Assembly (NCBI RefSeq): GCF_023650955.1
Contig: NZ_CP098039.1
Coordinates: 1,116,001 to 1,180,000 of the forward strand
Direction of reading: 5' to 3'
DNA from: Thermosynechococcus sp. HN-54
Lineage (GTDB): Bacteria > Cyanobacteriota > Cyanobacteriia > Thermosynechococcales > Thermosynechococcaceae
Length of the DNA stretch: 64,000 nucleotides
Position numbers and translations under genes: made by a program. Under the pieces are notes generated by a model. It searched no databases and was not told the origin of the DNA. It saw only the letters and a list, made by a program, of their open reading frames with translations. Position 1 is the first letter of the stretch. Each line of letters begins with the position of its first letter. Below, in pieces: positions 51,106-52,916 of this stretch.

Positions 51106-52281
51106 TTAGAGGTAAACTTGCTTGGTGCTCAGTAACTGAGCAAGGCCAAAGAGTCCTCGCTGGAAACCCCTAGCAGCAACACCAATGGCCAAGGCATCCC
51201 AGCGTTCTAGCTGCGGGGGGCGATTGACAAAGACAAGGGGGGTTTGCGCCTGCTGATAAAAAATCCGGCAGTCTTCGTAGCTGCTGGCAACAATCCCACT
51301 GGCGGCGCTGCCGTACTGGTGAATCCAATTCAAAGCTGCAGCTAAATCCTCTTCGTAGTGCCACGCCAAACGTCGATCTAGATAAGGAAGTGGCCACTCA
51401 CTGGCATCCACAAGGGGAAGTTGCCCATAGTTGCGGTGTAAGTGCTCATCCACCCCCTGTTTGTAGCCGGCTTGAGTCAACTCATTGATCACAAACGTGA
51501 GATGGGAGGGATTGACATTACTGAGGACAATGACCTTTTCAATGGCAAGGGCGCGATCCGGATTGGCTTGGTGGCTGTGCTGAATACAGTGGAGGACGCT
51601 CTCTGGGGAGACAGAACCATCCCAAACCAAGTAGGTATTACCAAGGGAGAGAGACACCAAGGGGCAGCGAGCAGCAGCGCGTTGCTCGGCCACAAAACGA
51701 GAGCGGCCATAGACAAGGGCTAAATCAACAGCGGTGGCATCCGCAAGCCAACTGGCGGGCGTTAAGGAGAGGGTTTGAATGGCGGTTTTCGGCAAGCTGG
51801 TTTTACTCAAAGCAGCCTCGATCAGGCTGGCGATCGCCCTAGCGGTATAGCGACTACTTTCACTGCTCCAGAGCACGAGTGCGTTTCCTGTTTTCAGAGC
51901 CATGCCCGCCAACATCAGACTCAACGTCGGTAGCCCTTCATAGACCAAGGCCACGACTCCCAAGGGAACGGCATACTGGAACCTCTCTGGCCGCGTTGGC
52001 AACGGCTGCTGCCACGGATCTGCCGCCTGATAAAGGTGCTCTAGCCACTGCCGAATGCGGTGGAGGCGCTCATGGGTTAGCCGCAGCCAGCCCAAAACAA
52101 TCTGAGAAACAGCCAAATCGCGACTGGATTCAAGGTCAAGAGTATTTTGCTCCAACAGGAGAGGTTCTGCTGCCTCTAACTCGGCAATCAATCGCCCTAG
52201 AGCTTCCTGACGCAGGGCATAGCTGGCTTGGCTAAGGTGTGTACTGGCGACCCGCGCCCCCCTCAACGGATCGGGCAACAT
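51106..52281 (-). CDS. ProA-like (gamma-glutamyl phosphate reductase family) protein lacking the catalytic Cys
   Basis: 391 residues with the aldehyde-dehydrogenase fold of ProA (VPLGVVALVYEGLPTLSLMLAGMALKTGNALVL, cited as VPLGVVALVYEG and LKTGNALVLW; C-terminal QYGSAASGIVAS). In ProA the catalytic Cys lies in a segment like VCNSVETLLV; here the aligned piece reads ALAIEKVIVL, with Ala in place of Cys. So it is unlikely to be the real proline enzyme and may bind a nucleotide or act as a regulator. I recall a second, divergent ProA in Synechocystis too. ATG 52281 is chosen; a TTG at 52314 would overlap the gene upstream. Confidence 0.75.
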   Translation of the reverse strand: MLPDPLRGARVASTHLSQASYALRQEALGRLIAELEAAEPLLLEQNTLDLESSRDLAVSQIVLGWLRLTHERLHRIRQWLEHLYQAADPWQQPLPTRPERFQYAVPLGVVALVYEGLPTLSLMLAGMALKTGNALVLWSSESSRYTARAIASLIEAALSKTSLPKTAIQTLSLTPASWLADATAVDLALVYGRSRFVAEQRAAARCPLVSLSLGNTYLVWDGSVSPESVLHCIQHSHQANPDRALAIEKVIVLSNVNPSHLTFVINELTQAGYKQGVDEHLHRNYGQLPLVDASEWPLPYLDRRLAWHYEEDLAAALNWIHQYGSAASGIVASSYEDCRIFYQQAQTPLVFVNRPPQLERWDALAIGVAARGFQRGLFGLAQLLSTKQVYL

Positions 52282-52294
52282 AGCGGAGCGTGGC

Positions 52295-52714
52295 TCAACG
52301 GCGGGAGAGGGCAATCCACACTAAAAATGCGGGCGTCAGTGCAATCAGCAGGGAGGCAATAATCCATAGCAACCCTTCAGGTTTTAAGGACAATTGTAGA
52401 AGCAAGGGCAGCCACAGGAGAATTGGCATCAACAAAAAGAAGCTGAGGCCAATGGCAAAATACCAATAGCCGTCTGAGAAGCCCCGCTGCAACTGACTCC
52501 ACTGCAATCCCGTCCAATACCACGCTCGTTTGTAGGGATAGGTGGTGGCCAATTGCTCAATCGAATAGCCATCCGGACGGACGACAAAAATTTGTTGACA
52601 GCGCCGACACCCAAAAGCTTCCGTAAGGGCGATCGGCATCAACTCCCCTTGGCGACGACAGGGGCAGGGGTAACTTGCATCGAGATCCAGTTTGTGAGGT
52701 TTAATCGGAGCCAC
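52295..52714 (-). CDS. Zinc-ribbon-like membrane protein
   Basis: 139 residues: CPC (17-19) and CRRC (36-39) could form a four-Cys metal knuckle, followed by GYSIEQLATTYPYKRAWYWTG and two membrane helices (about 84-108 and 115-135). Not assigned to a named family. It ends 13 bases before the ProA-like gene on the same strand, so the pair is probably one operon. Confidence 0.7.
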   Translation of the reverse strand: MAPIKPHKLDLDASYPCPCRRQGELMPIALTEAFGCRRCQQIFVVRPDGYSIEQLATTYPYKRAWYWTGLQWSQLQRGFSDGYWYFAIGLSFFLLMPILLWLPLLLQLSLKPEGLLWIIASLLIALTPAFLVWIALSRR

Positions 52715-52916
52715 GGTGGCTGTCCAAAAGGCAAACGACAGGAAATGATTCGATTGAGGGCGATCGCCCGCCTACTGATACAGCATACAAACAGAATTCT
52801 GTTTTGCCCGCGACTTATACAATTTGTTAAAGAGAGACGGGAAAGCTGCATATTTCGATTTTTATCCACTGGAAGAATGTAGGCTAGGATACAGTTCTGC
52901 CGCAAACTCGCTAAGC

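Follow-up and report, generated by a model that had tools for sequence, protein, structure and literature searches.

A ProA-like protein without the catalytic cysteine is encoded beside a zinc-ribbon-like membrane protein in cyanobacteria and may be a ligand-binding pseudoenzyme

We found that Thermosynechococcus sp. HN-54 encodes a ProA-like protein in which the catalytic Cys of gamma-glutamyl phosphate reductase (ProA) is replaced by Ala, and that its gene directly follows a gene for a small zinc-ribbon-like membrane protein, here called ZR. Both genes lie in the window (the whole stretch of 64,000 nucleotides that was analysed), and the pairing recurs in other cyanobacteria. We give about even chances to the interpretation that the Cys-less protein is a non-reducing, ligand-binding pseudoenzyme of the ProA family, probably held at the membrane by ZR and acting as a regulator or sensor, not as a proline enzyme. 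The features of the pair are as follows.

51106..52281, minus strand: Cys-less ProA-like protein, 391 aa from the ATG at 52281 (open reading frame, profile, fold, dN/dS)
51550..51552, minus strand: Ala codon (GCC) in the place of the catalytic Cys, position 253 of E. coli ProA (alignment)
51928..51942, minus strand: YEGLP motif (canonical [YF]EARP), Arg122 replaced by Leu (sequence and alignment)
52295..52714, minus strand: ZR, zinc-ribbon-like membrane protein, 139 aa, GTG start (alignments, AlphaFold, hydropathy, synteny)
52598..52666, minus strand: CPC...CRRC knuckle pair of ZR, residues C17, C19, C36 and C39 (ZR alignments)

The ProA-like gene is the second of two minus-strand genes, and ZR is the first. 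The open frame (51106-52314, minus strand) would encode 402 aa if read from a TTG at 52314. The ATG at 52281 is the likelier start; it lies 13 bases downstream of the ZR stop, the spacing that an earlier note on this DNA had given for a small membrane protein with CPC and CRRC motifs. The same note had reported the Cys-to-Ala change and the YEGLP motif, and both are confirmed. The Cys site reads NPDR-A-LAIEK in the window copy versus YPAA-C-NAIET in the second ProA of the same genome. At Arg122 (E. coli ProA numbering) the window copy has Leu, and all 66 Cys-bearing ProA proteins that we aligned have Arg (66/66). We looked for an alternative Cys in the site, the result that would have undone the note's reading, and the window copy has none.

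The fold of ProA is well kept, as the note had also held. The AlphaFold model of the window protein has a mean pLDDT of 90.4. In a Foldseek search its best solved match was a true ProA (1o20, E 6.6e-34), entries ranked 1-18 were all ProA or P5CS, and the match to E. coli ProA (8zok) had a TM score of 0.81 by query length. The Cys-less protein thus has the full-length fold in common with ProA (TIGR00407, PRK00197; 1o20, 8zok). The window protein scored 24.5 bits against Pfam Aldedh (cut-off 23), which places it in the ALDH superfamily fold. In contrast, its scores against the ProA profiles were below their cut-offs: 147 bits versus 289 for NCBIfam PRK00197, with a match spanning most of its length, and 125 bits versus 317 for TIGR00407. 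The window copy lacks the catalytic Cys, the charged residues and the family score that mark ProA (EC 1.2.1.41). Searches of a phage library matched the ProA-like protein to one unnamed family (phrog_13417, E 6e-19), and neither it nor ZR matched anything in a defence library.

We compared residues in an alignment of 112 Cys-less proteins with 66 Cys-bearing ProA proteins (34 canonical cyanobacterial, 9 Gloeobacter-type, 13 from other Cyanobacteriota and 10 outgroups). Groups in the alignment and trees were assigned by hand from locus numbers. The 112 leave out two loci with a stop in the matched frame (L007, L010) and four duplicates (L028, L132, L134, L156); three divergent rows from families f5 and f28, likewise Cys-less, were kept separate. 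No relative had Cys at the catalytic position (0/112), including those found by whole-genome search alone (0/32). A substitute Cys within E. coli positions 249-257 was seen among the 112 only in L013, four residues before the site.

The change is wider than a single Cys. Among the 66 Cys-bearing proteins, 42 positions show 98% invariance or more. In the Cys-less set, 22 of them are retained by at least 90% of the sequences and 15 by at most 10%. The 15 lost residues are R65, R122, R181, R200, H226, K246, C253, E312, T370, D374, G375, G381, E383, T388 and P396. Six of the seven near-invariant basic residues are lost, and H340 is retained. Unlike ProA, the Cys-less proteins are without Cys253 and have other residues in place of R65, R122, R181, R200, H226, K246, D374 and E383, each of these eight being retained in 0/32 of the whole-genome-found rows and in a fraction of 0.00 of the 112. 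These eight residues are likely to serve the substrate in ProA; Glu383 is the residue concerned in ProA*, an E. coli variant whose specificity is altered. Kept in the Cys-less set are N46, D49, D88, P89, G113, E120, N138, G201, N367 and G395. Retention of the fold and of 22 of the 42 near-invariant positions is what one would expect of a ProA isozyme that is still active, using another residue or a residue of its partner, and three of four members tested from crown cyanobacteria do pass the PRK00197 cut-off. We consider this very improbable: the Cys, six basic residues, E312, D374 and E383 are gone, and the window genome and 55 others of 60 examined also own a canonical ProA.

Several of the lost residues have been replaced by others that belong to a new, conserved set. 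At 15 positions a residue found in at most 5% of Cys-bearing ProA is fixed in at least 94% of the Cys-less set; W65, Y200, R202, Y226, W229, H246, D251 and R374 are among them. The window copy carries all 15 (15/15), and its identity to Cys-less rows outside its genus (alignment A3) is 31-44%, with a few lower. The 32 rows that came from whole-genome search, with no peptide pattern involved, show the new residues in 27 to 32 of 32 cases per position. One peptide pattern covers the places of Y226 and W229, so both are biased in the 80-locus set; in the 32 unbiased rows they are present in 32/32 and 30/32. We infer that the new residues sit in the pocket, because they align with lost ProA residues.

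The gene is under purifying selection. Within the window genus, dN/dS of the Cys-less gene was 0.07-0.11 for four close pairs and 0.13-0.14 for a more distant pair, as compared with 0.05-0.07 for canonical ProA. Judged from its sequences, the Cys-less family is not in decay, because dN/dS is 0.07-0.14 and 15 residues are newly fixed, each of them found in the window copy too. A decaying relic could account for the long branch of the window genus and for one of its eleven members (G043), in which the gene is cut short at about residue 370. However, the low dN/dS, the signature residues fixed throughout, and the ProA-like match at a profile E of 1e-100 or below in 33 of 38 family codes (Gloeobacter-type f14, f29 and f32 included) make a relic the least credible of the explanations considered. 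The shortening in G043 (locus L010, about 370 aa) is due to a TAG that is either a true change or a sequencing error. Stops reported for two other genomes (G173 and G132) fall before the likely ATG.

A fixed new pocket would be expected of a new enzyme just as of a sensor. The fold might have been rebuilt for a different, Cys-independent reaction, since several of the lost residues were replaced by fixed and possibly catalytic ones (H246, Y200, Y226, D251, R374) and not by drift. On the other hand, some of the fixed residues are bulky Trp and Pro that could just as well fill the pocket, and we know of no ALDH-fold enzyme that works without its Cys. We regard a new enzyme as an outside chance, to be taken seriously. 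The ligand of the window protein may also differ from that of its relatives. Most Cys-less proteins have a K/R-G-G-x-E motif, its successive positions being kept in 102, 103, 86 and 101 of 112. We take this motif to be part of the nucleotide site, as in other ALDH proteins. The window copy reads W-S-S-x-S there. This alteration makes NADPH or another nucleotide a less likely ligand in the window genus than in the Cys-less relatives.

ZR has the sequence pattern of a zinc ribbon on a predicted membrane anchor. Its Cys residues are arranged as C17-P-C19 and C36-RR-C39 (CPC-x16-CRRC). C17, P18, C36 and C39 are invariant across 39 aligned ZR proteins (alignment A4), and C19 is invariant across 24 (alignment A2); in Gloeobacter-type members the knuckle reads CPRC. 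The AlphaFold model (pLDDT 86.2) has an N-terminal beta domain bearing the Cys pairs and a helical hairpin. The two knuckle-spaced Cys pairs thus lie on a beta domain, as in a zinc ribbon, according to the sequence and the predicted strands. The model places transmembrane helices at residues 80-107 and 112-138, and 19-residue hydropathy exceeds 1.6 over 82-112 and 108-138. ZR, which the earlier note had already called a membrane protein, is therefore predicted to be an integral one with two transmembrane helices, and its N- and C-termini would both be inside. Within the window genus its dN/dS is 0.05-0.12.

ZR resembles known zinc-ribbon membrane proteins in this Cys pattern. Ten of the 39 ZR members weakly match Pfam DUF2396 (best E 0.00019), a group of zinc-ribbon membrane proteins of unknown function; the window ZR matched no Pfam family at E 1. 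A Foldseek search of its model against solved folds gave 40 matches, none with E at or below 0.001, and no confident solved zinc ribbon.

We found that ZR and the Cys-less gene are associated in most cyanobacteria in which both were found. A scan of named genomes with two peptide patterns gave 535 related stretches, of which the best 80 were retained; their record titles are cyanobacterial except for one MAG labelled Tatlockia. None of these best 80, which form part of the 112, has the Cys. In 79 of them a ZR gene in the same orientation lies no more than 1 kb upstream of the open frame, and the gap to the ProA-like frame is at most 50 bases in all but four of the 79. The sole miss (L042) is cut by a contig end. 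A cruder clustering of the same loci gave ZR in 75/80.

A whole-genome survey gave a similar picture. ZR-type matches are present in 169 of 195 genomes of the class (109 genera), with the weak matches in G020, G071 and G115 possibly being to a second ZR-like gene (ZR2; see below). Of the 26 genomes without a match, the 20 listed belong to f2 (16), f12 (two), f19 (one) and f36 (one). Both genes occur in 130 genomes among the matches listed (150 for each of the ZR and ProA-like searches), and in 129 of them ZR lies upstream in the same orientation, no more than 1 kb away; the exception is G014. The median distance between the matched stretches is 56 bases, and it exceeds 250 in three. The 130 include 5 Gloeobacter-type genomes, and Cys status was read in the fetched rows only. 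In a sample of the phylum, 33 of the 37 Cyanobacteriia had a ZR-type match, and none of the 51 other Cyanobacteriota did. The association of ZR with the Cys-less gene is not due to chance, because ZR is upstream on the same strand in 79/80 named loci and 129/130 genomes. The pair in other cyanobacteria, which the earlier note had proposed looking for, is thus widespread.

The genes beyond the pair vary (gene names by eye) while the pair persists. ZR aside, no neighbour is kept in more than 51 of the 80 named loci, which speaks against a new enzyme. In two families a class II F/SBPase-like gene (glpX; by eye) flanks the pair on the same strand (L202 7939-11241 in G184; L206 2813-5609 in G142), and in one of these two a glyoxalase-like gene (by eye) flanks it also.

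The two proteins are not obligatory partners. Four genomes (G011, G030, G081, G156) have the Cys-less protein and no ZR match, so the Cys-less protein can probably act without ZR. Conversely, ZR occurs with only a canonical-scoring ProA, by profile, in G154, G161 and seven f17 genomes.

The window genome has one other ProA (L002, G000:C1:62297-63589) in its 2.7 Mb single contig. Its Cys is intact, so the second, intact proA that the earlier note had suggested seeking does exist. It belongs to the same family by sequence as the window copy, and unlike that copy it has the Cys and falls in a separate clade of the tree. Canonical ProA is present in 56 of 60 genomes examined, the window genome included, and among the canonical loci fetched ZR adjoins it only in G047. 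The window copy is 25% identical to the canonical ProA of its own genome. This identity and the tree rule out a recent duplicate of that genome's proA. The earlier description of a ProA paralogue without Cys thus stands as to the Cys; the protein also occurs outside this genome and did not arise by recent duplication of its proA.

A third type of ProA combines the Cys with the ZR partner. We provisionally call the genomes that have it Gloeobacter-type (G013, G045 and others). In 8 of 9 Gloeobacter-type genomes (f14, f29, f32), ZR directly precedes a Cys-bearing ProA; in the ninth (f29, G058) they fall on separate contigs. At E 1e-60 the ProA profile matches once in every one of the nine genomes, and it is the Gloeobacter-type members of the 60 genomes examined that have no canonical ProA. 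Gloeobacter-type ProA has the same ZR family upstream as the Cys-less proteins and is the nearest Cys-bearing lineage in the best trees. Unlike them, it keeps the Cys and the ProA residue set and is the one ProA-profile match of its genome. The ZR-ProA pair seems older than the loss of catalysis, because ZR precedes the only ProA found, a Cys-bearing one, in eight of nine such genomes. The earlier emphasis on a missing Cys was therefore right about the Cys and too narrow otherwise: a residue set was rebuilt, and the likely nearest ZR-linked relatives bear the Cys.

Quick trees, with SH-aLRT support only, point to the same relationship. In a 112-row tree the Cys-less proteins form one clade (support 100), crown canonical ProA forms another (98), and a split separates the Cys-less, f5/f28 and Gloeobacter-type proteins from the rest (98). 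In a 64-row tree without long branches, the Cys-less and Gloeobacter-type proteins group with support 95. A single clade of all cyanobacterial ProA was rejected (lnL 134 lower, p 7.5e-5). Holding the Cys-less proteins with canonical ProA lowered lnL by 29.6 and was not rejected by the AU test (p 0.13). At 90% conservation, 6 sites are shared by Cys-less and Gloeobacter-type proteins without canonical ProA, and 1 by Cys-less and canonical proteins without the Gloeobacter type; at 80% the counts are 14 and 6. Our results favour, and do not prove, a Gloeobacter-type origin of the Cys-less proteins, with descent from canonical ProA being less likely. A route from a canonical copy within a ZR locus is also conceivable given the arrangement in G047 (f17; L179 1563-3347), where ZR precedes a canonical Cys-bearing ProA with 4 bases between the open frames. 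By either route, there are lineages outside the Cys-less one in which ZR adjoins a ProA of the catalytic type. In G047 (L179) and in G016 (L122), both f17, ZR is near a hydantoinase/oxoprolinase-like gene (by eye), and in G016, unlike G047, the canonical ProA is elsewhere.

Families f5 (L123, L124) and f28 (L177) have very divergent ZR-linked ProA-like copies in which the Cys is replaced by Gly and Ser. The f5 copies keep His226, Glu312 and Pro396 and look like an intermediate or an independent loss.

That Gloeobacter-type genomes and G047 link ZR to a Cys-bearing ProA would also be expected if the Cys-less protein were a regulatory subunit of the proline enzymes, assembling with canonical ProA (or ProB) into mixed oligomers so as to adjust flux, with ZR only placing it. 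The title of structure 8zok describes E. coli ProA as a tetramer, and both Synechocystis proA transcripts rise under nitrogen deprivation (PMC12386471). Identity to the canonical ProA query is only about 24-34%, and we rate such a subunit as unlikely, without dismissing it. The position of ZR before canonical ProA in G047 would likewise agree with ZR having a part in making proline.

We considered two further features near these genes. The window genome has a second ZR-like gene (ZR2; G000:C1:2617886-2618353; L133; L204 5387-5860) that lies 4 nt after a leuA-like gene (by eye). At E 1e-3, a search with ZR2 hit 87 of 97 genomes, a count that takes in matches to ZR. Among 30 ZR2 loci the neighbour was leuA-like in 5, all of the window genus, and one other gene family in 18. 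We dropped a general rule tying ZR proteins to amino-acid enzymes, since leuA-like neighbours occur in only 5/30 ZR2 loci. An NtcA-like GTAN8TAC site lies at 52879-52892, between ZR and ppk2, and 9 of the 11 loci from the genus have it. Over 121 loci such sites were not clearly enriched (16 observed versus 9.8 expected). Given these numbers and the position of the site between ZR and ppk2, we make no claim of nitrogen control via NtcA. A promoter and terminator scan gave nothing above shuffled sequences.

We propose the following path to the pseudoenzyme. ZR would have been the partner of ProA while this was still a working enzyme, as suggested by the Gloeobacter-type genomes, in which a Cys-bearing ProA comes straight after ZR. 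In crown cyanobacteria, with another ProA for proline, the ZR-linked copy would have been free to drop catalysis and keep another role. The rebuilt pocket might then bind a metabolite, of the glutamate family or a nucleotide, and pass its state to or through ZR. The lost nucleophile and charges, the kept fold, the new residue set and the membrane partner would all fit a ligand-binding regulator. The more specific version, in which crown cyanobacteria have a membrane-anchored metabolite sensor made from a former ProA that signals via ZR, with the Gloeobacter type as the ancestral catalytic pair, we put forward tentatively, as less likely than not.

Synechocystis has two genes annotated proA, sll0461 and sll0373; the nitrogen-deprivation study reports both transcripts raised and treats both as ProA (PMC12386471). 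Elsewhere, sll0461 is listed with a value of 0.35 among the genes that high copper lowers (PMC4182526), is reported up with butanol (PMC3726282), and is cited as raising PHB when disrupted (PMC3859321, citing an original study). A study of P5CS evolution describes ProA duplications as scattered, with no pattern (PMC11061531), and the catalytic role of the Cys is taken from P5CS work (C598 in Drosophila; PMC8963878). In the accessible portions of the literature on sll0461/sll0373 and related topics, with subscription journals mostly outside, the missing Cys is nowhere mentioned.

Routine annotation probably misnames many crown Cys-less proteins as a proline enzyme, because PRK00197 (cut-off 289 bits) accepts three of the four tested (L026, 329; L096, 329; L127, 311) and fails one (L128, 264). 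All four fail TIGR00407 (cut-off 317 bits). If our interpretation is true, the gene annotated as a second proA in many cyanobacteria would not encode a proline enzyme, and experiments on sll0461 and sll0373, either of which could be the Cys-less copy, would need to be reread. The Gloeobacter type, the divergent f5/f28 copies and the crown type would then form a traceable series from enzyme to pseudoenzyme, with the partner gene in place.
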